Assembly (NCBI GenBank): GCA_016178785.1
Contig: JACOSO010000085.1
Span: 62,001-126,000, forward strand
Length of the DNA stretch: 64,000 nt
From: Bacteroidota bacterium
Lineage (GTDB): Bacteria > Bacteroidota > Bacteroidia > Cytophagales > Cyclobacteriaceae
Direction: 5' to 3'
Part shown: positions 1,692-62,098 of the stretch, piece after piece
Position numbering within the stretch: position 1 is the stretch's first letter
Layout of the letters: each line of letters starts with the position of its first letter
Notes under the pieces: generated by a model
What the model was told of the DNA's origin: nothing
The model's input: only the letters and a program-made list of their open reading frames with translations
Databases searched by the model: none
Translations under genes and position numbers: made by a program

Positions 1692-3023
1692 CTATCCAAT
1701 CAATTTTTGTAAAGCAGTGTTCACCTGATTGAACGGAAAAACAGCAATGGCTCTATCCATCATTAGAGATATTTCCTTGAGGTTGAGATTGCCAATGCTT
1801 CCTTCGTGTGTGTGACTGATCTTTGTTGAATAGGTAAATTTTCCTTCTTCAATATCCTTCCCGATTTTTTTATAAGCATCGCGAAAGGGCATTCCCGACA
1901 AAACCAGTTTATTCACCTCCTCAACGCTGAATAAGTATTTGTATTTCTCATCGTCAAGGATGTTGTCTTTGATTTTAATGTTTGAGAGCATCAGCACTGC
2001 CATTTGCAGACAGTCACTCAATACTTTAAACGCTGGAAATAGTTTTTCTTTCAGCAACTGTAAATCGCGATGATAACCTGACGGCAAATTTGCGGTAACT
2101 AATGATATTTCATTCGGAAGGGCAATCAGTGTGTTGCACTTGGCACGAATCAACTCAAACACGTCAGGGTTTTTTTTGTGGGGCATGATGCTGCTTCCGG
2201 TCGTGAGGTCATCCGGAAAACTAATGAATCCAAAATTCTGATTCAAAAACAAGCATGTATCCATTGAAAGTTTAGAAAGAGTTGCAGCAACATTTGAAAT
2301 TGCGGAAGCAACAATGCGTTCCGTTTTGCCTCTACCCATCTGCGCGTATACCACATTGTAATTCAACTCAGCGAAGCCGAGAAGTTCGGTTGTCATTTTT
2401 CGATTCAATGGAAAAGAAGAGCCATAACCGGCAGCCGAGCCCAACGGATTTTTATTCGCAACTTGATAGGCAGCCTGCAATGTGATCACATCATCAACCA
2501 AGCTTTCGGCATAAGCACCAAACCAAAGTCCGAACGAAGAGGGCATCGCCAATTGCAAATGGGTATAGCCCGGAAGTAATTTGTCTTTGTGCTCATTGCT
2601 TAGTTTAATCAATAGGTCAAAAAGCGTCTTTGTTTCATTAACAAGCTCCTCGATCTGGTAACGCATGAAGACTTTGATATCTACTAATACCTGATCATTT
2701 CGTGAACGGCCGCTGTGGATTTTTTTCCCTACGTCACCAAGCTTTCTCGTAAGAAGCAATTCTATTTGAGAATGAATATCCTCAACTCCGGATTCAATTT
2801 GAAAACTCCCTTTTTCGATTTCTTTATAAATATTTTTTAGCTCCAAGCTTAATGATGCTAATTCATCTTTGGTAATTAAGTTGATTGATTGCAACATTTG
2901 AATGTGGGCGAGTGAACCCAGCACATCAAAACTTGCGAGGTAAAGATCCATTTCCTGATCCTTACCTGTGGTGAATTCGGTCACTTCTTTGAGGGAGTCT
3001 TTGTCTTTTTGCCAGAGTTTCAT
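1692..3023 (-). CDS. argH: argininosuccinate lyase
   Basis: Last step of arginine synthesis: splits argininosuccinate into arginine and fumarate in the cytoplasm. The 443-aa protein has the fumarase/aspartase superfamily signature GSSIMPHKKNPD (residues 276-287, holding the catalytic serine loop), SGRSRND at 104-110 and GYTHLQ at 152-157. It is the last gene of the minus-strand arginine operon, separated from nudK by a roughly 310-base spacer bounded by inverted repeats, so it may have its own promoter or be transcriptionally buffered. The length fits Bacteroidota ArgH (a little shorter than the 457-aa E. coli enzyme). Confidence 0.96.
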   Translation of the reverse strand: MKLWQKDKDSLKEVTEFTTGKDQEMDLYLASFDVLGSLAHIQMLQSINLITKDELASLSLELKNIYKEIEKGSFQIESGVEDIHSQIELLLTRKLGDVGKKIHSGRSRNDQVLVDIKVFMRYQIEELVNETKTLFDLLIKLSNEHKDKLLPGYTHLQLAMPSSFGLWFGAYAESLVDDVITLQAAYQVANKNPLGSAAGYGSSFPLNRKMTTELLGFAELNYNVVYAQMGRGKTERIVASAISNVAATLSKLSMDTCLFLNQNFGFISFPDDLTTGSSIMPHKKNPDVFELIRAKCNTLIALPNEISLVTANLPSGYHRDLQLLKEKLFPAFKVLSDCLQMAVLMLSNIKIKDNILDDEKYKYLFSVEEVNKLVLSGMPFRDAYKKIGKDIEEGKFTYSTKISHTHEGSIGNLNLKEISLMMDRAIAVFPFNQVNTALQKLIG

Positions 3024-3331
3024 AAGTAGTTTCCAGTTTCCGGTTGCTGGTTTCCGGTTTTTAAAGCAGAGAAATCGTTGAGATTGTCTTCAACCCATTA
3101 AACGAATTTATTTATTCGCATGCTTAACGAGTCGTATTCATTTCTTAATCGTAACAGATTTTGATGATCTTCAAATTTGTCCTTCTTCATAGATTTCAAA
3201 TTTAGGAGTGATAAGGATACTTTATGAACTCAATCGCTAATCGTTTCGATTCTTTGTAAATTTCTAATCTCTATAACTTTTCATAATCCGTTTTTCTCGG
3301 TTCCAGCTACCGGTAACTTGAAACCGGCACC
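3024..3331. repeat. argH-nudK spacer bounded by an inverted ~22-base repeat
   Basis: No gene is visible here. Plus-strand 3303-3324 begins CCAGCTACCGGTAACTTG. The minus strand across 3050-3029 reads CCAGCAACCGGAAACTGG, then GAAAC in both; 19 of 22 positions agree. The two arms face each other at the ends of the spacer, about 250 bases apart. A further CCGG/GAAA word follows the argH-side arm (3051-3060). The interior is AT-rich with no reading frame I would defend. The arrangement could be a short non-autonomous element, or a repeat that folds in the mRNA between nudK and argH. Confidence 0.6.
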
Positions 3332-3907
3332 TTACTGAGAAAACAAATTCAATTTCGCGTACTGGAGAAGCATGATCGTTTTTCCATCTTTTATTTCTCC
3401 TGTTTCGATCATCGAATAGGCCTGATCAAATTCCATTTCGAGTACATCAATGTCTTCGTGGCCCTCAACACCACCACCTTCGGCCACTTTCATGTTCTTT
3501 GCGTATTCAGCTACGAAGAAATAAAGTATTTCAGTAACAGAGCCCGGTGACATGTAGGCCTCAAAAATTCTCTTCACAGAAGATATTTTATAACCGGTCT
3601 CTTCCTCGGTCTCTTTGCGAATGCAGTCTTCCGGATTGTCGAGATCAAGAAGTCCCGCACAAGTTTCTATGAGCATTCCGGATTCGTTGCCATTAATATA
3701 GCTAGGCAGGCTGAATTGTTGCGTTAGAATTACAGTCTTACTTTCTTTATTGTAAAGAAGAATGGTTGCACCGTTTCCGCGATCATAGGCTTCTCGGTTT
3801 TGTGTAACCCACTCACCTTTTTTATTTTGATAGTCGAATGTAACTTTTTTTAAGGTATACCAGTTATTGGATAAGATTTCGGTTTTGGAGATTTTTACAC
3901 GCGTCAT
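3332..3907 (-). CDS. nudK: Nudix hydrolase, GDP-mannose pyrophosphatase NudK-like
   Basis: Hydrolyses a nucleotide sugar such as GDP-mannose to GMP plus sugar phosphate, by family. At 191 aa it equals the E. coli NudK (YffH) length and shares several remembered blocks: [34 protein letters not shown] and TGEIKDGKT. The Nudix box (about 104-126) is the NudK variant, with Asn where the first conserved Glu of the canonical box usually stands and KE in place of RE. It sits between argE (37-base gap) and argH on the same strand. It has no known role in arginine synthesis, so it is probably a passenger of the operon. Confidence 0.88.
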
Positions 3908-3944
3908 CGTTGAATAGTTTTTTCGCTGGTAACGTTTAAATTGA

Positions 3945-5006
3945 TTAGAGGTTTTCTATTAACTGAGTGTACGATTCAATCCCTGCCCGAATTTCATTCA
4001 AATAAATAAACTCGTCAGCGCTGTGTGATCTTGCCGAATCACCTGGCCCCATTTTAATAGATGACGTAGGTATTAGTGCCTGATCGGAAGTGGTAGGTGA
4101 GCCGTATAATTTCTTGCCCAATTTTTTAGCCGATAAGATCAATGGATGACTTTCGTTTATTCCCGAAGGCCTTAAACGAAGTGATCTTGGAGTTGCTACA
4201 CATTTTATATTTCGTTTTACAATTTCCAGTACTTCCTCCAACGAATAAGAATCCGTCACTCGAATATCGACAGTGAATTTGCATTCGGGCGGAACTTGGT
4301 TGTGCGCTTGTCCTGCATTAATCATTGTCACTGACATTTTCACTTTGCCCAGTGTAGAAGAAATTTTTGGAAACTCGAATGTTCGAAACCATTCAATGTC
4401 AGGTAACGCTTCGTAAAACGCATTCACCCCTTCTTCACGTGCGGCATGGCCGGCTTTGCCTTTGGCAATACAATCAAGAACCAGTAATCCCTTTTCGGCA
4501 ATGGCAATGTCAGTCAATGTTGGTTCACCCACAATAGCACAGTCTATTTTAGGTAAATCGTTCCATATACTTTCGATACCATTGAATCCGGAGATTTCTT
4601 CTTCGGCAGTTGCTGCGATAACAAGATTGTACTTCAAATCTTTTCGATCATGGAAAAACAAAAATGTTGCTATGAGCGACACGAGTGGTCCACCGGCATC
4701 GTTACTTCCCAATCCAAATAACTTATCGTCTTGAATTGTTGGCAAAAATGGATCACGTGTATAAGCAGGATTTGGTTTTACTGTATCGTGATGCGAGTTG
4801 AGGAGGAGAGTCGGTCTGGAATTATCAAAATATTGGCCGATTGCCCAGACGTTGTTTCCTTTTCTTTGAGATGGAATATTATGTTTGGTAAAAAGCTCTT
4901 GAATGATTTCAGCTGTTTTATTCTCTTCCTTACTAAACGAAGGAGTTGCAATCAGCTTTTTGAGCAGATCAACACTTTCCAAAAACAATTCTTCGGCATC
5001 TTTCAT
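3945..5006 (-). CDS. argE: M20 family deacylase, N-acyl-ornithine/citrulline deacylase (ArgE-type)
   Basis: Removes the N-acyl group from an arginine-pathway intermediate. With an ArgF'-type transcarbamylase in the same operon, the natural substrate is probably N-acetyl- or N-succinylcitrulline rather than acylornithine (inference). The 353-aa protein has M20 metal ligands: NSHHDT around 70-74, SNDAGG with D103, AEEE at 134-137, a GEPT loop, and RSHSADE near the C terminus. Its start overlaps the end of argB by 4 bases (ATGA), showing translational coupling. DapE-like activity cannot be excluded from sequence, but the neighbourhood favours arginine. Confidence 0.9.
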
Positions 5007-5794
5007 GATTTGGTGATCAGCGTGCCTTCGGTAGTTTCACGAATATTTTTGATAAGATCTTTTGCGTCGCCAATCAAAACCTCTTTCACCCCTGAATTGA
5101 TTGCTGAGAAAGCATTTTCAAGTTTGGGTAAAATGCCGTCCGCAAGCGCACCTTCTTTCAGTAGTTGCTGGTAAGTAGATTCATTCAGTTGGCGGATAAC
5201 TGAATTTTCGTCTTTGATGTTTTTGAGCACTCCTTTCTTTTCAAAGCAGAAAATCAAACGAGTTTCAAAATGTTTACTGAGCGAGATGGCAAGAACTGAC
5301 GCAATTGTGTCAGCATTTGTATTTAAGATTTCTCCGTTCGCGTGCGTGAGGGGTGCGAAGATGGGAATTACGTTTTGTTTGAGTAGAAAATACAAGAAAG
5401 TAGAATTAACATCGTCTGGTTTGATGTCACCCACATAGCCGTAGTCGATTTCACCTACCGGCCGTTTCACTGCTTTCAATAGATTTCCATCGGCACCAGT
5501 TATGCCAATCGCATTGCAGTGTAAGGTTTGCAATTGGGCTGTGAGTTGTTTGTTCAACAAACCGCCATAGACCATCGTTACCAAATCGCGAGTAGGCGCA
5601 TCGGTAATTCTTCTGCCATTAATATATTTTGATTCAATCCCAAGCTGATCTCCGATTTTGGTGGCGATCTTCCCTCCACCATGCACTAAAATTTTTGGGG
5701 CTTGAATGGATGCAAAATCTTTTAAGAAGGAATTAAGTCCTTGCTCATCGTCCAGCACATTGCCACCGATTTTTATGATGTATAATTTGTTCAT
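5003..5794 (-). CDS. argB: acetylglutamate (N-acylglutamate) kinase
   Basis: Phosphorylates the gamma-carboxylate of N-acylglutamate with ATP, the second step of arginine synthesis. The 263-aa amino-acid-kinase fold shows KIGGNVLDD at the N terminus, HGGGK around 38-42 for the phosphate loop, GGLLNK, and the NADT segment in the second half. It lacks the N-terminal helix extension that marks arginine-inhibited hexameric kinases, so feedback control may lie elsewhere (inference). It ends in an ATGA overlap with argE. Upstream, an 86-base hairpin-containing spacer separates it from argF'. Confidence 0.95.
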   Translation of the reverse strand: MNKLYIIKIGGNVLDDEQGLNSFLKDFASIQAPKILVHGGGKIATKIGDQLGIESKYINGRRITDAPTRDLVTMVYGGLLNKQLTAQLQTLHCNAIGITGADGNLLKAVKRPVGEIDYGYVGDIKPDDVNSTFLYFLLKQNVIPIFAPLTHANGEILNTNADTIASVLAISLSKHFETRLIFCFEKKGVLKNIKDENSVIRQLNESTYQQLLKEGALADGILPKLENAFSAINSGVKEVLIGDAKDLIKNIRETTEGTLITKS

Positions 5795-5811
5795 CTTTTT
5801 AGTCCTTAGCC

Positions 5812-5880
5812 GTTAGTCTTGAGTCTTGAGTCTTTGGTCTTAGAGTATATTTTAACTTAATACTCAGGACTGAAGACTCT
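5812..5880 (-). repeat. argF'-argB junction: AGTCTT word repeats forming a hairpin
   Basis: The spacer is built of AGTCTT/GAGTCTT words (5815-5840) followed by near-complements. GAGTAT (5843-5848) pairs with ATACTC (5860-5865) around an 11-base AT-rich loop, and AGTCTT (5829-5834) can extend the stem with AAGACT (5873-5878). The stem lies between the argF' stop and the argB start in the mRNA. It could stabilise or attenuate the transcript, or be only one of the word-like repeats seen at several junctions of this operon. Confidence 0.55.
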
Positions 5881-6837
5881 TTACTGAATACTTTTCAATA
5901 TTTCACTCAACACAGCCTGCGCTGCCCAAACACGATTGCCCGCTTGTTGCGTTACAAGGCTATTGCTATTATCCAGCACTTCATCACTCAGCTCCACGTT
6001 TCTCCTCACGGGAAGACAATGCATCACCTTAGCATGATTTGTGACTTCCATTTTCTTTTGTGTGAGCATCCAGCTTGGATCGTTGCTATAGATTTTTCCA
6101 TAGTCGTTGTAGGTGCTCCAATTTTTTACATAAACAAAGTCGGCCTCTTTCAACGCTTCTTTCTGATCATGTAAAATAGTTGCTCCATTTGTGAACTGCT
6201 CATCGAGCTCATAATCTTCCGGGTGGGTGATCACAAAATCGGCTTGACCCCAGGCGTTGATCCATTGCGCAAAACTATTGGCTACGCATTGCGGCAATAC
6301 TTTGACGTGGGGTGCCCACGTCAATACAATTTTTGGTTTTCTTTTTTCTTTGAATGACTCAGTGATGGTGATGATATCAGTTAAACTTTGCAACGGATGA
6401 AGGGTTGCGCTTTCCAGGCTTACCACAGGAACACCGGAGTATTTAATAAACTGCTGAATAAAAAATTCGCTGTAATCTTCTGCTTTATCTTTCAGCGTAG
6501 GGAAGGTGCGGACGCCAAGTACATCAAAGTATTTCCCAAGCACAGGCGCAGCATCTTTGACATGCTCAACTGTGTTTCCGCTCATGATTACTTCTTCTTC
6601 AAACTCAAGTGCCCAACCTTCATTGCTCACATTAAAGACAATTGCTTCCATGCCCAAATGCTTAGCTGCCAGTTGCGTACTGATGCGAGTCCGCATACTT
6701 GGATTGAGAAAGAGCATTCCTATGGTTTTGTTTATGCCAAGGCTTTTATCCTTAAATGGGTTTGCCTTGTAAGCCAATGCGCTTTCGATCAACGCAGGAA
6801 TCGAATAAGCATCTTTTACAGAAATGAATTTCTTCAT
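5881..6837 (-). CDS. argF': N-acylornithine carbamoyltransferase (ArgF' family)
   Basis: Transfers the carbamoyl group to N-acetyl- or N-succinylornithine. At 318 aa it aligns without gaps near the N terminus to the Bacteroides fragilis succinylornithine enzyme as I remember it. The carbamoyl-phosphate loop is SMRTR (47-51), HPLQSLTD carries the His-Pro-x-x-Gln motif, and MHCLPVRR is the second substrate loop. Residue 90, Pro in the succinyl-specific and Glu in the acetyl-specific enzymes, is Val here (SGNTVEH), so substrate preference cannot be read off. The start overlaps the argD stop (ATGA). Confidence 0.92.
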   Translation of the reverse strand: MKKFISVKDAYSIPALIESALAYKANPFKDKSLGINKTIGMLFLNPSMRTRISTQLAAKHLGMEAIVFNVSNEGWALEFEEEVIMSGNTVEHVKDAAPVLGKYFDVLGVRTFPTLKDKAEDYSEFFIQQFIKYSGVPVVSLESATLHPLQSLTDIITITESFKEKRKPKIVLTWAPHVKVLPQCVANSFAQWINAWGQADFVITHPEDYELDEQFTNGATILHDQKEALKEADFVYVKNWSTYNDYGKIYSNDPSWMLTQKKMEVTNHAKVMHCLPVRRNVELSDEVLDNSNSLVTQQAGNRVWAAQAVLSEILKSIQ

Positions 6838-7970
6838 GAGTGAGCAACTTCTTTTAGTTCAACAGACAAAGCTTCGAGCAAAATATCAGCTTCTGGTTTA
6901 CTCAGCGCCAATGAAGGGAGCAAGCGCACCGTGTTTGGTTTCGCTTCACCCGTGAAGATGTTGTGCTTGAACAATAAATCTTTGCGCAAGGAAGCGAGTG
7001 ATTCTGGTAAATCGAAACCAATCATTAACCCCAGGCCACGCACTTCTTTGATCGATTGATGATTTTTCAGTTGTTCCATCCAATGATTTCCGATTAAGAG
7101 TGCATTGTCCATCAACTTTTCAGATTCAATGACTTCAAGTACCGACAGCGCAGCAGCGCAGGCCAGATAATTTCCACCGAAAGTAGTTCCCAGCATTCCA
7201 CTCCAAGGCTTTATATTCGGATTGATCAGGACTCCTCCAACAGGAAAACCATTACCCATTCCTTTGGCAACGGTAATCAAATCTGGTTTTACCAACGAAT
7301 ATTGATGAGCGAAGAATTTTCCTGTTCGCCCATATCCTGATTGAATTTCATCCAGGATCAAGAGCGCCCCTGCCTCTTGGCATTTTTTTGAGAGCAATTC
7401 AAGGAATGAATTCGATGGGATATGAATTCCGCCAACCCCTTGGATGCCTTCAATGATGACGGCTGATACTTCTTTCGTAATTTTTTCCTCAGCATTCTTT
7501 AAATCATTGAATGGCAAAAACTCGATTTCATGATTAGCATTGAACGGAGCAACAATTTTTGGATTATCTGTAGCGGCCACAGCGCCTGAAGTTCTGCCAT
7601 GAAAAGCCTTTGTAAATGCAATTACTTTTTTTCTGCCCGTCACAAAACTGGCAAGCTTCAATGCATTTTCATTAGCTTCCGCGCCCGAGTTGCACAAGAA
7701 CAATTCATAATCCGGATAGCCAGAGAGTTCCCCAAGTTTCTCGGCAAGTTGCTCTTGCAGTGAATTTTTCACGCTGTTTGAATAGAACGAAATCTTATCT
7801 AACTGATCTTTCAATCGTTCGACAAAATGCGGATGGTTATGACCGATCGAAATCACGGCATGACCTCCGTAAAGATCTAAGTATTTTTTTCCTGCTTTAT
7901 CCCATAGCCATGAGCCTTCAGCCTTGACTGGTTCAATTGGAAAAAGAGGATAGACATCGAAGAGTTTCAT
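6834..7970 (-). CDS. argD: acetylornithine (N-acylornithine) aminotransferase
   Basis: PLP enzyme that makes N-acylornithine from the semialdehyde using glutamate. The 378-aa class III aminotransferase has SGAEANE (95-101) for cofactor phosphate binding, LDEIQSGYGRTGKF (206-219) with Asp207 contacting the pyridine nitrogen, and the Schiff-base lysine K236 in TVAKGMGNGF. It overlaps argF' downstream and proC upstream by 4 bases each, placing it in a tightly coupled run. A succinylornithine preference would be invisible at this level. Confidence 0.94.
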   Translation of the reverse strand: MKLFDVYPLFPIEPVKAEGSWLWDKAGKKYLDLYGGHAVISIGHNHPHFVERLKDQLDKISFYSNSVKNSLQEQLAEKLGELSGYPDYELFLCNSGAEANENALKLASFVTGRKKVIAFTKAFHGRTSGAVAATDNPKIVAPFNANHEIEFLPFNDLKNAEEKITKEVSAVIIEGIQGVGGIHIPSNSFLELLSKKCQEAGALLILDEIQSGYGRTGKFFAHQYSLVKPDLITVAKGMGNGFPVGGVLINPNIKPWSGMLGTTFGGNYLACAAALSVLEVIESEKLMDNALLIGNHWMEQLKNHQSIKEVRGLGLMIGFDLPESLASLRKDLLFKHNIFTGEAKPNTVRLLPSLALSKPEADILLEALSVELKEVAHS

Positions 7971-8764
7971 TTCTTTATATTATTAATACGATCAAATGAA
8001 GTGATGATTCCTTTAATTAAAGCCGAACTAAGGCCTTGATGCTCCATCTCATTTAGCCCGGCAATAGTGCAGCCCTCTGGCGTTGTTACTTTATCGATTT
8101 CCATTTCAGGATGAGACTCGCGCGACAAAAGGAGAGAAGCAGCCCCGCTCGCGGTTTGCGCTGCGATCAACTGTGCTTCTTCCGAGTCAAAGCCCATTTG
8201 AATTCCACCTTGCGTGGCTGCCCGGATGTACCTCATCGCAAAAGCGATTCCGCTTGCGGCAAGAACAGTTGCTGCTTTCATCAGCCGCTCTTCTATAACC
8301 AATGTTTCGCCCAATGCATTGAAAATCTTTTGTACTTCAGCCAGATGTTTTTCGTCTGCATCTTTGGCACAAAGACACGTCATCGATTTTCCGATAGCAA
8401 TTGCAGTGTTAGGCATTGCACGCACAATGGGGATTTTTTTTCCTAAATGAGCCGCTATTTCTTCTGTTGAAACGCCTGTGATTGTCGAGACAAGAATTTG
8501 CTTCGCATTAAGCGATGACTTGATTTCATTTAAAAGATTTGCAATTTGTTTGGGCTGCACGCAAAGAAAAACAAGGGATGCATTTTTAGTCGCTTTAACA
8601 TTATCTGTGGCAAGTTGAAATCCTTCTTTTTTTAGATGATCAATTTTCGCAAGATTCCTTCTTGTGATAATTATGTCGGAAGCTTTTGTTTTTGACTTGA
8701 GTAGTCCCAAGGCAATGGCTGATCCTAAATTCCCTCCTCCGATGATTGCAATTTTCGATGTCAT
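7967..8764 (-). CDS. proC: pyrroline-5-carboxylate reductase
   Basis: Final step of proline synthesis: NAD(P)H reduction of pyrroline-5-carboxylate. The 265-aa protein starts with a Rossmann motif (IIGGGNLGSAIA, 6-17) and carries the P5CR C-terminal signature TPEGCTIAGLNEMEHQGL near 227-244. It lies between argC (1-base gap) and argD (4-base overlap), so it is co-translated with arginine enzymes. The placement ties proline output to arginine/ornithine-pathway expression. A specialised reductase acting on an arginine-pathway semialdehyde is possible but unsupported. Confidence 0.94.
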   Translation of the reverse strand: MTSKIAIIGGGNLGSAIALGLLKSKTKASDIIITRRNLAKIDHLKKEGFQLATDNVKATKNASLVFLCVQPKQIANLLNEIKSSLNAKQILVSTITGVSTEEIAAHLGKKIPIVRAMPNTAIAIGKSMTCLCAKDADEKHLAEVQKIFNALGETLVIEERLMKAATVLAASGIAFAMRYIRAATQGGIQMGFDSEEAQLIAAQTASGAASLLLSRESHPEMEIDKVTTPEGCTIAGLNEMEHQGLSSALIKGIITSFDRINNIKK

Positions 8765-8765
8765 A

Positions 8766-9752
8766 TTAAAAGCCGGTTGATTTAAGTTTAAGTCCTACAG
8801 TTTCATCGAATCCAAACATCAGATTCATATTCTGGATTGCCTGACCACTTGCCCCCTTCAACAAATTATCAAGGGCCGAATGAACAACTAATTTATTTCC
8901 TTCTTTCTCAAGATAGATCAAACACTTGTTCGTGTTTACCACTTGTTTGAGGTCAATCATCGAGTCGGTTACATGGGTGAACGGATGTGTGGAATAAAAA
9001 TCTTTGTAAAGCCGATTCAACTCATCCAACGATTTCTCAGATTCAATAATCGAGCTCACGAAAATTCCTCGAGTGAAGTCACCGCGCCAAGGCACGAAAT
9101 TCACATCTGATTTATAATTAGGCTGAAGCGATTTCAAGGTTTGGTTGATCTCGCCCAAATGCTGATGCGTTAAAGTTTTGTACGCAGAGATGTTATTCGC
9201 TCTCCACGTGAAGTGTGTGGTCTCTTGCAACTTTTGCCCGGCACCGGTGCTACCGGTGATCCCAACGGTATTTACTTCACCAAGAAGCGATGCCTTTGCC
9301 AAAGGCAGCAGCCCCAGTTGAATTGTAGTTGCGAAACATCCCGGGTTAGCAATATTATTAGCTTTCTTGATTTCTTCTCTCCGGTATTCTGGAAGGCCAT
9401 AAACAAAATTTCTGCCCGTTACTGAATCTCCTAAACGGAAATCATTTCCTAAATCAATAATTTTAGTCGTTGATGAAAAAGTATTTTCAGTCAAAAACTT
9501 TTTACTCTCACCATGACTCAGGCAAAGAAATACGACATCAATATTTTTGTCGAACGATGAAGTGAATTTTAAAGAGGTCTCTCCAATCAGATCTGCGTGA
9601 ACTTCGTACAAAAGCTTTCCTTCCTGACTTCTACTCTGAACAAAAATCAATTCTGCATCCGGATGATTAAGAAGCAAACGAACTGTTTCTCCTCCAGTGT
9701 ATCCTGCACCTCCGATGATCCCCGCTTTTATTTTATGTGTTGATGTGTTCAC
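8766..9752 (-). CDS. argC: N-acetyl-gamma-glutamyl-phosphate reductase
   Basis: Reduces N-acylglutamyl phosphate to the semialdehyde. The NADP-binding motif AGIIGGAGYTGGE is close to the N terminus, and the catalytic Cys lies in NPGCFATTIQLGLLPL. The start is unusual: there is no ATG near the conserved core. The GTG at 9750-9752 (Val-Asn-Thr-Ser-Thr-His-Lys-Ile-Lys) gives 328 aa, a normal ArgC length. The only upstream ATG (9864-9866) would give 366 aa, overlap argG by 59 bases and translate word-like repeat DNA. I therefore prefer GTG, with moderate certainty about the start only. Confidence 0.9.
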   Translation of the reverse strand: MNTSTHKIKAGIIGGAGYTGGETVRLLLNHPDAELIFVQSRSQEGKLLYEVHADLIGETSLKFTSSFDKNIDVVFLCLSHGESKKFLTENTFSSTTKIIDLGNDFRLGDSVTGRNFVYGLPEYRREEIKKANNIANPGCFATTIQLGLLPLAKASLLGEVNTVGITGSTGAGQKLQETTHFTWRANNISAYKTLTHQHLGEINQTLKSLQPNYKSDVNFVPWRGDFTRGIFVSSIIESEKSLDELNRLYKDFYSTHPFTHVTDSMIDLKQVVNTNKCLIYLEKEGNKLVVHSALDNLLKGASGQAIQNMNLMFGFDETVGLKLKSTGF

Positions 9753-9830
9753 GTGATGTGTTGAAGTATCTGTGTTTCTGTCTTGAATACTGCCTACTGG
9801 TTTCTGTCTACTGCTTACTTTTAGCTTCTT
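9753..9830 (-). repeat. word-like repeats across the argG-argC junction
   Basis: Read on the minus strand, the junction has CAGTAGACAG / CAGTAGGCAGTA words over the argG stop, then ACTTCAACACATCACG and AACACATCAACACA at the argC start. The same junction thus holds two families of short near-repeats, resembling in style (not in sequence) those at the argF'-argB and nudK-argH junctions. They may be decayed copies of short dispersed repeats. Confidence 0.4.
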
Positions 9831-11079
9831 TGACAACCTGATGATAAATTGACACCTGGTTTCCAAAAATCTTCGTGAACCCTTTCACATCCTCGCCAGT
9901 CCAGCCTAAATTCATTTCGCCATACTTTCCAAACTTTGATGACATCAGATCATAAGGAGATACAATTCCATTGATAACAAACCGATGGGGATAAAGCGAA
10001 ATGGAAACTTCACCGATTACATTTTGCTGCGAACTCGTTAAGAAAGATTCCATATCGCGCATCACCGGATCGAGATATTGACCTTCATGAAGCCAGTTGC
10101 CATAGAATTGTGCCAGTTGGTCTTTCCAACTTAATTGCCATTTGGTGAGCACATGTTTCTCTAATGCATGATGAGCTTTGATCATTAATACAGGAGCAGC
10201 AGCCTCAAACCCAACCCGACCTTTAATTCCGATGATTGTGTCGCCCACATGTATATCGCGACCGATACCGAATGGCCCAGCAATTTCTTGCAATGTTTGA
10301 ATGGCTTCTGTTGGATGAGAATATTTCTTGCCATTCACTTTTACTAATTCTCCTTTCTCGAATCCCAGGGTTACATCTTCTTTTTCTTGTTTGGTCACTT
10401 GAGTAGGCCATGCCTCTTCGGGCAACATGCCTAGAGAATTTAAAGTCTCTTTTCCTCCAACCGATGTTCCCCAGATTCCTTTATTAATAGAGTACTTCGC
10501 CTTTTCGAAGTTCATTGCAACTCCATTTTTTTTTAGGTATTCAATTTCTGCTTCACGGCTCAATTGCATATCGCGAATGGGCGTGATGATCTCGATACCT
10601 GGAGCAAGAATCTGAATCACCATATCGAACCGAACCTGATCATTACCTGCACCGGTACTACCATGGGCAACTGCATCGGCTTTTAATTCACGAGCATAGT
10701 TTGCAGCAGCTAATGCCTGTGACATGCGTTCGGCACTCACACTCAGTGGATACGTTCCGTTCTTCAATACGTTTCCGAATACTAAATACTTAATGACTTT
10801 GTCATAGTAGTTTTTGGTCTCATCTACCGTTTTGTGCGATTTAACCCCGAGACTTAACGCACGGCTCTCAATCGCGCGAATTTCTATTTCAGAAAATCCA
10901 CCTGTGTTCACCGTGAGAGTATGCACTTCATAGCCTAACTCTTTTGTTAGATAGATGGCGCAGTATGAGGTATCAAGGCCTCCGCTAAATGCAAGAACGA
11001 CTTTTTTCGCCTCACCCCCCGACCCCCTCTCCAGAGGAGAGGTGGAGGAGCCTTGGACTAGGTTTGCAGTTTTATTCAT
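9808..11079 (-). CDS. argG: argininosuccinate synthase
   Basis: Joins citrulline and aspartate with ATP to give argininosuccinate. The ATP-pyrophosphatase loop LAFSGGLDTSY lies at about 29-40, with HGSTGAGNDQVRF and the SVGGKETL segment downstream. The protein is 423 aa, about 20 longer than usual. The extra residues are an N-terminal stretch containing SPLERGSGGEAKK, which is the in-frame translation of a dispersed palindromic repeat (see 11010-11042). No alternative start lies between this repeat and the conserved core, so the repeat is probably translated. Confidence 0.95.
   Translation of the reverse strand: MNKTANLVQGSSTSPLERGSGGEAKKVVLAFSGGLDTSYCAIYLTKELGYEVHTLTVNTGGFSEIEIRAIESRALSLGVKSHKTVDETKNYYDKVIKYLVFGNVLKNGTYPLSVSAERMSQALAAANYARELKADAVAHGSTGAGNDQVRFDMVIQILAPGIEIITPIRDMQLSREAEIEYLKKNGVAMNFEKAKYSINKGIWGTSVGGKETLNSLGMLPEEAWPTQVTKQEKEDVTLGFEKGELVKVNGKKYSHPTEAIQTLQEIAGPFGIGRDIHVGDTIIGIKGRVGFEAAAPVLMIKAHHALEKHVLTKWQLSWKDQLAQFYGNWLHEGQYLDPVMRDMESFLTSSQQNVIGEVSISLYPHRFVINGIVSPYDLMSSKFGKYGEMNLGWTGEDVKGFTKIFGNQVSIYHQVVKEAKSKQ
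11010..11042. repeat. dispersed palindromic repeat, copy 1 (inside argG)
   Basis: The element begins CCTCACCCCCCGACC and ends in a perfect inverted repeat: CCTCTCC (11026-11032), AGA, GGAGAGG (11036-11042). It encodes the SPLERGSGGEA stretch of ArgG. Copies 2 and 3 at 11130 and 14213 share the CCTCA-C-C head and the CTCC/GGAG palindrome. I recall similar C-rich palindromic repeats being common in Bacteroidota intergenic regions and turning up in predicted proteins as SPLERG-like peptides. Confidence 0.75.
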
Positions 11080-12307: not shown

Positions 12308-13159
12308 ATGAACAAGAAAATAGTTCGCGTGGGCGCTATCGAGTGCGGTGCCGATGAGCTTTTCCTCATCTCCGGACCGTGCGTGATTGAAGAAGAGAAA
12401 ATCATGATGCAGACGGCCGAGAAACTGAAAGAAGTTTCGGAGCGCCTGAAAATTAAGATCATTTATAAGTCGTCTTTCCAAAAAGACAACCGCAGTAGTT
12501 TAAAATATTACAACGGCCCCGGCCTGGACAAGGGAGTGAAGCTCCTGGCTAAGATTAAAGAACAATTTGGTTTCCCTCTGCTCACAGATATTCATTATCC
12601 GGAGCAGGCTGCTGCCGCTGCTCCTGTAGTCGATGTACTTCAGATCCCCGCTTACCTGTGCATGCAAACCTCACTGATGGTGGCTGCGGCTAAAACGGGA
12701 AGAGTAATTAATATCAAGCACGGACAGTTCCTCGCTCCAGATAACATGAAACACCCCGTAACAAAGTGTGTGGAAGCAGGCAATGATCAAATCATTTTGA
12801 CTGAGCGTGGCTATACTTTTGGATACAATGATCTGATTGTTGATCCTCGCAGTTTCTACCACATGAACAAAATTGGTTACCCCGTAGTATTTGATGTTAC
12901 CCACGCGATCCGTAAATACGGAATCCCAAGTGCCGATGCGAAGGGTGGAGCAAGAGAATTTTTGCCTGTGCTTTCACGCGCGGGTGTGGCTGCTGGCGTG
13001 GATGGCGTTTTTATTGAAACTCACCCTGATCCTGAAAAGGCATTATGCGATGCTGCAAGCCAGCTTTGCGTTTATGACCTTGAAGAATTTTTGAAACCTT
13101 TGCTCGAACTTCATGCGATTGAAGTGAAATACCGTGAGCAAACTCCTGTATTGAAATAA
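12308..13159 (+). CDS. kdsA: 3-deoxy-8-phosphooctulonate synthase (KDO-8-P synthase)
   Basis: Condenses arabinose-5-phosphate with phosphoenolpyruvate to Kdo-8-phosphate, for lipopolysaccharide inner core. The 283-aa protein shows SGPCVIE (21-27), the KSSFQKDNRSS phosphate loop (57-67), the ILTERG motif (about 160-165) and DVTHAIRKYG, all KdsA hallmarks. It opens a plus-strand cluster whose next gene starts 27 bases downstream. The ATG at 12308 begins MNKKIVRVG, as expected for the family. Confidence 0.95.
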   Translation: MNKKIVRVGAIECGADELFLISGPCVIEEEKIMMQTAEKLKEVSERLKIKIIYKSSFQKDNRSSLKYYNGPGLDKGVKLLAKIKEQFGFPLLTDIHYPEQAAAAAPVVDVLQIPAYLCMQTSLMVAAAKTGRVINIKHGQFLAPDNMKHPVTKCVEAGNDQIILTERGYTFGYNDLIVDPRSFYHMNKIGYPVVFDVTHAIRKYGIPSADAKGGAREFLPVLSRAGVAAGVDGVFIETHPDPEKALCDAASQLCVYDLEEFLKPLLELHAIEVKYREQTPVLK

Positions 13160-13186
13160 ACTTTATTAAACCAGAAAATACACTTT

Positions 13187-14200
13187 ATGGAATTGTACTT
13201 AGACTCAGCCGACCTCAAAGAAATTGAAGACGCATTTAAACTCGGATTTCTTACGGGGCTTACCACAACACCTACCTTCATGCATCGCGGTGGTGTTACT
13301 GATATTGACGGCCTCATCGTAAAACTTTCAAAGATCGTTCCTGTGCTTCAGATCGAAGCGCTTGGCGATACTGCGGAAGATGTGCTGAAAGAAGCGAAGC
13401 GTCAGTTGGCGTTGGGTCTTGATCCAAAGAAAACCGTTTTCAAAATTCCTGTTTCGCTGGAGGGAGTGAAGGCATGTAATTTTTTGAGAAGAGAAGGATT
13501 GCTAGTGAATGTGCATTTGATTTATACACTTCAGCAAGCTTACATGGCGATGCAAGCGGGGGCTTCTTATGTTTGCCCGTTAGTTGGTCGTTTGCAAGAT
13601 CAGGGGCACGATGCACTTGATTTAGTAGAACAGTGCGTATTTGCAGTAAATCACTATGGTTACGATACCAAAGTGATGTTCTCATCTGTGCGTAATGCCG
13701 AACATGTACGCAACGCGATCAATGCAGGTGCTCATACCATCACTGTACCATGGAAAATTATGAAGGCATTAACCGAAAATAATTTTACATCATTGGGTAC
13801 GCAGCAATTCATTGAGCACACACGCCTGATGACTGTGAGGGTGAAAGATGCGATCAATAAAGTGAATCCAATTGTAACAGCAGATACTAATTTGTCAGAT
13901 GCCATTGTGAAGATGACTGAGTTTGGATTTGGAGCAGTTACTATAACCAACGGCAGCGGACAAGTGCTTGGCGTTTTCACTGATGGAGATCTCCGCAGAA
14001 AATTGCAACAGGATGGACGTAACGTGCTAGGCCAGAAAATGGGGGACTTCAAATACAATACTCCGATCTCAGTTGATGCGAATTCATTGTTGACAGACGC
14101 AGCCGATATTTTCAAAAAATCAAAAGTGGATACCATCCTTGTTACTGAAAACGGCAAGCCATCAGGAATGCTGGATATTCAGGATTTGGAGGGAGATTAG
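13187..14200 (+). CDS. transaldolase/fructose-6-phosphate-aldolase-like domain fused to a CBS pair
   Basis: A two-part protein of 337 aa. Residues 1-215 align with the short transaldolase/FSA family: MELYLD at the start with Asp6, TTTP (26-29; FSA has TTNP), the Schiff-base lysine K86 in VFKIPVSLEG, and YVCPLVGR where FSA has YVAPYVNR, so the FSA general-acid Tyr is Leu here. E57 takes the place of FSA Gln59 and resembles the Glu of TalB. Residues about 220-335 form two CBS domains; FGAVTITN and GVFTDGDLRR are typical of the CBS tail of the arabinose-5-phosphate isomerase KdsD. It lies between kdsA and a kdsC-like gene, where KdsD would be expected. A role in supplying arabinose-5-phosphate is inference. 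Confidence 0.88.
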   Translation: MELYLDSADLKEIEDAFKLGFLTGLTTTPTFMHRGGVTDIDGLIVKLSKIVPVLQIEALGDTAEDVLKEAKRQLALGLDPKKTVFKIPVSLEGVKACNFLRREGLLVNVHLIYTLQQAYMAMQAGASYVCPLVGRLQDQGHDALDLVEQCVFAVNHYGYDTKVMFSSVRNAEHVRNAINAGAHTITVPWKIMKALTENNFTSLGTQQFIEHTRLMTVRVKDAINKVNPIVTADTNLSDAIVKMTEFGFGAVTITNGSGQVLGVFTDGDLRRKLQQDGRNVLGQKMGDFKYNTPISVDANSLLTDAADIFKKSKVDTILVTENGKPSGMLDIQDLEGD

Positions 14201-14212
14201 TCTCCGCAAATT

Positions 14213-14265
14213 CCTCACCCCGTCCTTCGAACACCCCTCTCCCTGGGGAGTGGGGCAGGGGAGGG
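14213..14265. repeat. dispersed palindromic repeat, copy 3
   Basis: CCTCACCCCGTCC opens the element, followed by the imperfect palindrome CCCCTCTCC CTG GGGAGTGGGG (about 14235-14255). It begins 13 bases after the stop of the transaldolase/CBS gene and lies between it and the kdsC-like gene. It is in the same orientation as copy 1 inside argG. Confidence 0.65.
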
Positions 14266-14290
14266 ATTAAGTCGAAACCTGACTTATAAA

Positions 14291-14986
14291 ATGGACAATA
14301 CAGAAATTATTTTTACAGAACTGGGCGGCACATTTTGCCGCCCTTTTGTTGAATTCAAAGATCGATTTTCAAAAATCAAGGCTTACATTTTTGATTGGGA
14401 TGGTGTGTTCAATGATGGAGTCAAGTCGGCCCAAGGAGGAAGTCCGTTCAGTGAAGTTGATTCAATGGGCACCAATATGCTGCGCTTCGGTCATTGGCTG
14501 AAACACAAAACACTTCCTGCTGTGGCTGTGATCACAGGCGAAGAAAACCCTGCAGCTCAGCATTTATCACAACGCGAGCGTTTTCATGCTGTCTATTTTA
14601 AATCGACTAACAAATTGGTTGCGTTCGAGCACTTTTTGAAAGCCAATAATCTTAAGGCAAACGAGGTCGCTTTTCTCTATGATGATGTACTCGATCTGGG
14701 TGTTGCCGAAAAATGCGGGCTCCGATTTTTGGTGAGGCATCATGCTTCGCCATTGTTTCAAAACTATTCGGTCAAAAATCAGGTAGCAGATTATATCACT
14801 TCGACAGATGATCACGCTGTTCGCGAAGTTTGCGAATTACTTTTAGGTGCGAACGAGAATTTTGATGAGGCGATACGAAAACGTAGTCAGTTTGACGAAA
14901 CCTATCAACGATATCTCAATGAAAGAAATCAAGTCACCACTATGACCTATTTCTTGAAGGATGGAAAAGTGATTGAGGAGAGGTAA
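14291..14986 (+). CDS. HAD family phosphatase, KdsC-like
   Basis: Likely Kdo-8-phosphate phosphatase or a close relative, 231 aa. The HAD nucleophile motif is DWDGVFNDG (about 35-43; KdsC normally has D-x-DGVLTDG). VITGEE supplies the motif II Thr, and LYDDVLDLGVAEKCGL is the motif III/IV acidic block in the KdsC spacing. It differs from standard KdsC by an extra 30-residue N-terminal segment, an insertion after motif I, and a C-terminal extension of about 40 residues. The 90-base gap from the preceding gene holds a repeat copy. The cluster supports a Kdo role, but the divergence leaves room for another sugar phosphate. Confidence 0.75.
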   Translation: MDNTEIIFTELGGTFCRPFVEFKDRFSKIKAYIFDWDGVFNDGVKSAQGGSPFSEVDSMGTNMLRFGHWLKHKTLPAVAVITGEENPAAQHLSQRERFHAVYFKSTNKLVAFEHFLKANNLKANEVAFLYDDVLDLGVAEKCGLRFLVRHHASPLFQNYSVKNQVADYITSTDDHAVREVCELLLGANENFDEAIRKRSQFDETYQRYLNERNQVTTMTYFLKDGKVIEER

Positions 14987-61532: not shown

Positions 61533-62098
61533 AAAAGTTTCAGAAATATTTTCTTCATTTTATCAATGATGCGGTATGTACGCACCTTTGCATAGATTTC
61601 AGAAATGTTGAGGATTTCGGCCACCATCTTAAATGGCATATCTTCAAAAAACCTTAGTTCGATGATCTGAAGTTCATCGGGTTGGAGCTGTTGAAGTACC
61701 AGATGGAGTTTATTCTCTAATTGACTTTGTGGATCTTCAGGGAACATTTCTTCAAACAGGTGGTGAAAGGGAATATCTTCTACATACACTACTTTAGACC
61801 TCTTGCTCCTCCTGAAATAATCAGTGCATTCGTTGATTGCAATTCTGTATAGCCAGGAAGAGAAGGGTAAGCCTCGAAAATTAAATTGATGAATTCGCTG
61901 CATTGCTTTTAAAAAGATTTGCGAAGTGAGATCTGAGGCCAGGTCTCTGTCCTCCACACGGTGATAGACAAAGAGAAATATTCTTTTGAAATATTTTTCA
62001 TAAAGGGTCCGAAACCGGGCCGGGTCATTTTTAGCGGCCTCAATGGTTTCAGTCTCTTCTGTCTTTAGTACCTCGTCTGGGGGATTGAAAGTTTTCAA
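61529..62098 (-). CDS. ECF-type RNA polymerase sigma factor
   Basis: 189 aa. Region 2 (about 25-95) has RDLASDLTSQIFLKAMQRIH and SWLYRIAINECTDYFRR; region 4 (about 125-185) has LQPDELQIIELRFFEDMPFK and EILNISEIYAKVRTYRIIDK. It heads the minus-strand four-gene operon. The next gene overlaps its stop by 4 bases. It may direct transcription of the operon itself; the promoter upstream of 62098 is not recognisable by eye. Confidence 0.92.
   Translation of the reverse strand: MKTFNPPDEVLKTEETETIEAAKNDPARFRTLYEKYFKRIFLFVYHRVEDRDLASDLTSQIFLKAMQRIHQFNFRGLPFSSWLYRIAINECTDYFRRSKRSKVVYVEDIPFHHLFEEMFPEDPQSQLENKLHLVLQQLQPDELQIIELRFFEDMPFKMVAEILNISEIYAKVRTYRIIDKMKKIFLKLL

Follow-up and report, generated by a model that had tools for sequence, protein, structure and literature searches.

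A gene that joins a transaldolase-type barrel to a pair of CBS domains probably provides D-arabinose 5-phosphate (A5P) for KdsA in Bacteroidota where the isomerase KdsD is absent, and it may do so by combining glycolaldehyde with glyceraldehyde 3-phosphate (G3P). The gene lies in a 64,000-nucleotide stretch of DNA (the window; positions 62,001 to 126,000 of contig JACOSO010000085.1, assembly GCA_016178785.1) from a member of the Cyclobacteriaceae. An earlier note on this stretch had placed it at 12308-14986 in a cluster for 3-deoxy-D-manno-octulosonate (Kdo), between kdsA and the gene of a KdsC-like phosphatase of the haloacid dehalogenase-like (HAD) type, and the open reading frames and profile matches agree with this order (Table 1).

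Kdo is needed for lipopolysaccharide in most Gram-negative bacteria, and the formation of A5P by KdsD or GutQ is the textbook first step toward it. The fusion joins known domains in a new way and would carry out a known step with a different fold, and many Bacteroidota appear to have replaced KdsD by this unrelated fold, together with a KdsA lineage of their own. If true, a pathway essential for the envelope would show a clear non-orthologous displacement; this would explain the missing kdsD genes of the fusion genomes, correct the label of transaldolase suggested by profiles, and put a natural A5P synthase on offer for enzyme engineering. No description of such a transaldolase-CBS fusion was found in the open-access literature, subscription journals being mostly outside the search.

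Distribution of the fusion and KdsD

In the window's genome (4.47 Mb in 100 contigs, 96% complete), no protein exceeded the KpsF/GutQ cut-off, the highest-scoring match being to the fusion through its CBS part, and no separate standard kdsD was found. A search for SIS domains returned five matches on four proteins, namely GlmS (two domains; named by reading its sequence), GmhA, MurQ and a phosphoglucose/phosphomannose isomerase. KdsB is present (210 bits versus 155), as is a PF04413 protein over its cut-off, which we take to be a transferase of the WaaA kind. With KdsA, KdsB and the PF04413 protein present and KdsD absent, A5P formation is therefore the only one of the Kdo steps examined without its usual enzyme.

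We searched a sample of 192 genomes from the window's order for the fusion (E below 1e-100), for KdsD (over its cut-off) and for the KdsA type that accompanies the fusion in the window, hereafter fusion-type KdsA (E below 1e-100); here a contig end truncates the fusion of G386, that of G455 is split over two contigs, and the KdsA of G369, G435 and G466 is partial. Among the 165 genomes with KdsA, 61 carried the fusion only, 101 KdsD only, two both and one (G432) neither, showing a near-exclusion of the two enzymes (Fisher p 1.1e-41, kinship ignored). The 27 genomes without KdsA had neither enzyme, except for one with KdsD only (G433). The fusion occurs in fourteen families, eight of which also include members with KdsD, in one case within a single genus (g140). 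Across 296 Bacteroidota genomes, KdsD over cut-off was present in 208 and the fusion in five, with none having both (Fisher p 0.002). This leaves 83 genomes of the phylum with neither; of 25 picked from them, 21 also lacked KdsA over cut-off, and two of the four exceptions (G230 and G238, besides G268 and G023) have TIGR00393 matches at 2.0e-44 and 2.5e-46. A hidden single-domain SIS isomerase was also looked for: no fusion-only genome (n = 61) gave a TIGR00393 match better than E 2.5e-22, which is the CBS match, the full SIS search covering the window's genome only.

The fusion is not a chance artefact, since a search of genome contigs gave 272 relatives. The best 80 were kept for locus analysis; each of them covers at least residues 1-334, with identities of 75-95%. 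Fifty genomes behind 50 of these loci, chosen mostly for longer contigs (G306 is apparently the same as G146), were searched as well: 47 are without KdsD over cut-off and three have it, and 49 have KdsA. In the flanks of the 80 fusion genes (up to 6 kb, several ended by contig ends), kdsA was found near 60, a kdsC-like gene near 62, a kdnB-like gene near 38 and kdsB near 26; kdsA, kdsC-like or kdsB was present in 70 of the 80. The linkage to kdsA on which the earlier note depended therefore recurs in other genomes.

Family f67 of the order sample, with genomes of about 0.7-2.7 Mb, is without KdsA, KdsD over cut-off and fusion, except for G504, where the fusion and the fusion-type KdsA are both present.

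We further investigated the KdsA proteins themselves. In 80 genomes they split into one group 79-100% identical to the window's protein and another at 42-51%, a single genome having no KdsA. The fusion-type group extends down to about 67% identity in the order sample. All 63 fusion genomes of that sample carry the fusion-type KdsA, which forms its own clade in the KdsA tree. The window's KdsA passes the Kdo-8-phosphate synthase equivalog TIGR01362 and, aligned to Aquifex KdsA (1fwn), has Met119 and His138 where that enzyme has Arg106 and Lys125. The Met/His pair occurs in 78 of 78 loci of the fusion-type lineage, versus Arg in 40 of 40 standard KdsA loci (two partial rows were skipped, the second site was unreadable in four of the 40 standard rows, and some loci share a genome). 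Locus L158 also encodes a Met/His KdsA although its genome is without the fusion.

Six genomes of the order sample have fusion-type KdsA without the fusion, five of them with KdsD and the sixth being G432. In four of the five, all of one genus (G249, G393, G464 and G516), the fusion-type kdsA adjoins a kdsC-like gene and KdsD is encoded elsewhere; three of these four clusters contain kdnB, and three contain kdsB within the stretch. In the KdsA tree the four fall together with the protein of G190, a genome that has the fusion (support 100/98), and that of the fifth genome, G421, is placed elsewhere. The fusion/KdsD state thus changes at least twice on the KdsA tree, which sets no direction of loss or gain. 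Because the fusion-type KdsA lineage is fed by KdsD in these genomes, A5P is indicated as its substrate. The swaps are the strongest argument that the two enzymes, fusion and KdsD, meet one need and that the fusion-type KdsA works on A5P. Met in place of Arg106 was also considered as a sign of a substrate other than A5P, and this was rejected, as KdsD-bearing relatives without the fusion share the same KdsA lineage.

Where both enzymes occur, KdsA is often duplicated. G402 has two modules, one in which KdsD adjoins a standard KdsA and another cluster in which the fusion adjoins the fusion-type KdsA; G402 and G413, which are of one genus and are the two genomes of the order sample with both enzymes, each have a second, standard KdsA, and Chryseolinea serpens (G311) and G305 combine both enzymes with two KdsA genes.

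Altogether, the near-exclusion with KdsD, the swaps within one KdsA lineage and the Kdo-cluster context strongly support the earlier proposal that the fusion stands in place of arabinose-5-phosphate isomerase. On this genomic evidence its product is very probably A5P. The other role suggested at the time, a pure regulator of carbon entry, is disfavored because KdsA-bearing genomes would then have no known source of A5P.

Domains and active site of the fusion

The barrel matches TAL_FSA (PF00923) at residues 3-205 (E 1.1e-34, 120.5 bits versus a gathering score of 27) and is followed by two CBS stretches (PF00571, E 5.1e-15), the first at 219-273. No SIS family was found in a profile search of the 337-aa protein, in agreement with the earlier description of an aldolase domain ahead of a CBS pair. 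The KpsF/GutQ profile TIGR00393 covers residues 215-327 (profile positions 153-265), the CBS part only, at 63 bits versus a cut-off of 203.7, and the equivalog of fructose-6-phosphate aldolase (FSA), TIGR00875, scores 152.9 bits versus 245.95. The fusion has in common with KdsD/GutQ/KpsF a C-terminal CBS pair, the proposed product and the same pathway gap, and differs from them by a transaldolase-fold barrel in place of the SIS domain.

Among solved structures the fusion is closest to small transaldolases (3r8r, E 2.5e-35), with E. coli FSA (1l6w) farther away (E 9.4e-16). An AlphaFold model has a mean pLDDT of 92.7 and a pTM of 0.72, so each half is more reliable than the way in which the two are arranged relative to each other. 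Searched against the PDB, the predicted structure retrieved 3r8r (Z 30.2, 1.5 A, 211 aligned) and 3s0c (Z 30.0); such searches confirm folds only, and the CBS half is barely covered by the matched rows. The best PDB match of the CBS pair is 4o9k (E 1.3e-12), annotated as an arabinose 5-phosphate isomerase, whose ligand is CMP-Kdo. The TIGR00393 and 4o9k matches favor a CBS pair of KdsD type, and the motif TDGDLRR is present in 70 of 82 sequences. Descent of the pair from that of KdsD is a lead: a tree holding the fusion and KdsD pairs together was neither rejected nor demonstrated (p-AU 0.37; 28 rows, long branches).

We then compared active-site residues between the 104 distinct full-length fusion frames that the fetched loci contained, with identities as low as 57%, and 25 small transaldolases that stand alone in genomes of the phylum. 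Asp6, Glu57, Lys86, Asn108, Arg135, Ser167 and Arg169 are kept in all 104 fusions and all 25 transaldolases. At four other positions every fusion has Thr28, His110, Cys130 and Leu132, and every standalone transaldolase Asn, Thr, Ser and Phe. Asp6, Glu57, Lys86, Thr28 (in TTTP) and Leu132 had all been read correctly before; Thr110 to His and Ser130 to Cys are two further changes. The fusion therefore departs from small transaldolases of the TalC type at the donor and water sites (N28T, T110H, S130C, F132L). The window's genome encodes a separate standalone 226-aa transaldolase-type frame on contig C85 with canonical TTNP, Thr110, Ser130 and Phe132.

In FSA, one report assigns Asn28 and Ala129 to donor binding and Gln59, Thr109 and Tyr131 to the catalytic water (PMC13259622); in TalB, according to another, two Arg and one Ser hold the acceptor phosphate (PMC3962226). 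With numbering matched through the family alignment, the four switched residues of the fusion would correspond to the donor and water sites of FSA. Since the Arg/Ser phosphate set is kept and these four sites are switched, the acceptor side appears kept and the donor side rebuilt. The pattern fits a phosphorylated acceptor such as G3P and a donor other than dihydroxyacetone, and glycolaldehyde would be such a donor; the hydroxymethyl group presumably bound by the lost residues is missing from it.

Compared with the small transaldolases of B. subtilis (3r8r) and T. acidophilum (3s0c), the fusion has the same fold, Lys86, Asp6, Glu57, Asn108 and phosphate site; it differs by the replaced Asn28, Thr110, Ser130 and Phe132, by the added CBS pair and by its frequent location among Kdo genes. 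With FSA (1l6w, TIGR00875) it shares the fold, and it would differ, in family numbering, by Gln59 to Glu, Tyr131 to Leu, Thr109 to His and Asn28 to Thr.

Proposed chemistry and competing explanations

In the mechanism that we favor, Lys86 would form the imine, Asp6 and Glu57 would move protons, and Arg135, Ser167 and Arg169 would hold the phosphate. Glycolaldehyde, the C2 unit, would be bound to Lys86 as an enamine and added to G3P to give A5P in one step; KdsA would condense A5P with phosphoenolpyruvate, the KdsC-like phosphatase would remove the phosphate, and KdsB would activate Kdo. The CBS pair, as in KdsD, would sense a late product such as CMP-Kdo and throttle the barrel. We give this aldol route an even chance, and the feedback by the CBS pair a somewhat better one. 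There is precedent for the chemistry: E. coli FsaA and FsaB reportedly prefer glycolaldehyde as donor and, with G3P as acceptor, make A5P (KM 0.2 mM, kcat 16 per s; PMC6298115), and a transaldolase has been crystallized covalently with arabinose 5-phosphate, according to the title of PDB 3upb. A dedicated A5P synthase on the barrel scaffold would therefore be a modest chemical step.

Several observations weigh against the A5P-synthase explanation. Among the genomes, G432 has fusion-type KdsA with neither enzyme, and G433 has KdsD without KdsA (both drafts); G330, a 2.2-Mb draft, has the fusion without KdsA; and G268 and G023, outside the order, have KdsA without the fusion or KdsD over cut-off. 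Both enzymes occur together in G402, G413, G305, G311 and G321, not all of them with two KdsA genes, as only one KdsA of G321 exceeds the cut-off; G335, in turn, combines two KdsA with the absence of KdsD over cut-off. In 20 of the 80 flanks kdsA is lacking, and in 10 kdsA, kdsC-like and kdsB all are; the genomes of five of these ten loci were searched, and four have kdsA elsewhere, the other being G330. No gene for a glycolaldehyde source was recognized in the cluster, and to our knowledge free glycolaldehyde is not an abundant metabolite. The set of His110, Cys130 and Leu132 matches no characterized FSA that we know of, so the chemistry of the fusion may not be the FSA reaction. Finally, the CBS tree of 28 rows gathers the fusion pairs in one clade without placing it as KdsD-derived or with any other CBS pairs, and long branches meet there.

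One alternative keeps the same role with other chemistry: the barrel, as an epimerase or isomerase, would convert a cellular pentose 5-phosphate to A5P through an imine of Lys86 at the aldose C1. The spacing between phosphate and imine would be four carbons, as in fructose 6-phosphate bound through C2, and C2 of ribose 5-phosphate would be inverted either by exchange of a proton, for which Glu57 and His110 might act as acid and base, or by retro-aldol cleavage and re-addition. Such a route would account for the invariant His110 next to the imine and for the lost Asn28, would draw on an abundant precursor with no need for free glycolaldehyde, and is compatible with the covalent complex in 3upb; the evidence for A5P supply holds for it equally. 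Against it, Asp6 and Glu57, the aldol residues of the family, are kept in all 104 fusions. We know of no Schiff-base aldose-phosphate 2-epimerase, and we regard the pentose route as unlikely, if worth serious attention. Its most specific form, in which the fusion would be the first Schiff-base pentose-5-phosphate 2-epimerase, its barrel no longer exchanging carbon units but inverting C2 of ribose 5-phosphate through the Lys86 imine and His110 with a CBS pair reading CMP-Kdo, is more doubtful still.

It is quite improbable that the fusion is an ordinary transaldolase/FSA, or a regulator, in a Kdo operon whose A5P comes from an unrecognized isomerase. Its membership of PF00923 is clear, and an unrecognized isomerase is compatible with the genomic evidence alone. 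Such an enzyme would, however, need to track the fusion and avoid KdsD over 61 genomes versus 101, and the SIS proteins of the window's genome are accounted for by GlmS, GmhA, MurQ and the phosphoglucose/phosphomannose isomerase. An ordinary transaldolase, in turn, is at odds with the four altered donor- and water-site residues and with the canonical standalone enzyme already encoded in that genome.

That the cluster makes a different octulosonate, with the fusion supplying another aldose phosphate to the fusion-type KdsA, might be read from the Met/His pair of this separate clade and from the frequent Kdo 8-oxidase homologue nearby, but we judge it the least likely explanation, given that the window's KdsA is over the Kdo-8-phosphate synthase equivalog cut-off, that the same lineage is kept in relatives with KdsD instead of the fusion (L158 being Met/His too), and that KdsB and a PF04413 protein of WaaA type are present and KdnB acts on Kdo itself.

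Locus and neighboring genes

The three genes of the window's cluster are co-directional, and 27 bases separate kdsA from the fusion gene (Table 1).

Table 1. Coordinates of the Kdo cluster in the window and of example kdnB-like genes at other fusion-related loci
Feature	Position	Strand	Basis and remarks
kdsA	12308-13159	+	283 aa; TIGR01362, 339.2 bits versus cut-off 314
Transaldolase/FSA-fold barrel and CBS pair fusion gene	13187-14200	+	337 aa; PF00923, PF00571
Fusion barrel domain, residues 1-205	13187-13801	+	Residue comparison with standalone transaldolases
Codon of predicted Schiff-base Lys86	13442-13444	+	Aligned to the Lys of small transaldolases; invariant
CBS pair, residues 219-334, putative Kdo-pathway feedback sensor	13841-14188	+	PF00571, TIGR00393, 4o9k
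KdsC-like HAD phosphatase, extensions at both ends	14291-14986	+	231 aa; fold and catalytic residues
kdnB-like gene (L028)	4012-5085
kdnB-like gene (L032)	3330-4406
kdnB-like gene (L158)	2442-3542

The HAD protein scores below the KdsC cut-offs (TIGR01670, 53.6 versus 106.95 bits; PRK09484, 66.9 versus 208 bits). Its predicted fold (pLDDT 95.7) has YrbI/KdsC structures as top PDB rows (Z 21.0, 2.0 A, 168 aligned), and among 78 aligned rows Asp35 and Asp37 are kept in 77 and Lys108, Asp131, Asp132 and Asp135 in all. It thus combines a KdsC-type fold with the catalytic Asp/Asp/Lys/Asp set and, judged from the model, is a divergent KdsC, which resembles the Kdo-8-phosphate phosphatase KdsC/YrbI in fold and catalytic residues and differs by its terminal extensions and its scores below the family cut-offs.

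8-amino-Kdo is made by a route via Kdo 8-oxidase. The kdnB-like protein of L158 is a homologue of the Kdo 8-oxidase of known structure (5k8c, E 1.2e-127), and as KdnB homologues lie near the fusion, at least some fusion-bearing Bacteroidota may go on to 8-amino-Kdo. No kdnB match was found in the 64-kb window.

At two loci a gene lies between kdsA and the fusion (L031 5220-5930 and L032 5261-5923), encoding a protein of 220-236 aa whose sequence suggests secretion or a place in the outer membrane. A transaldolase-like match at G030:C1:144710-145348 lies in a 735-aa open frame and is perhaps another transaldolase fusion. A CBS pair also occurs at the N terminus of a nucleotidyltransferase on contig C24 of G000 (L093 781-1824; motif TDGDIRR), whose gene adjoins genes resembling those of NeuA and UDP-GlcNAc 2-epimerase; read from the sequence, this may be a nonulosonate cluster. 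Elsewhere in the window, the minus strand carries at 3945-11079 an arginine-type run of argininosuccinate synthase, an ornithine/aspartate carbamoyltransferase relative and an M20 peptidase, beside which argC-like and proC-like genes were read from the sequence.

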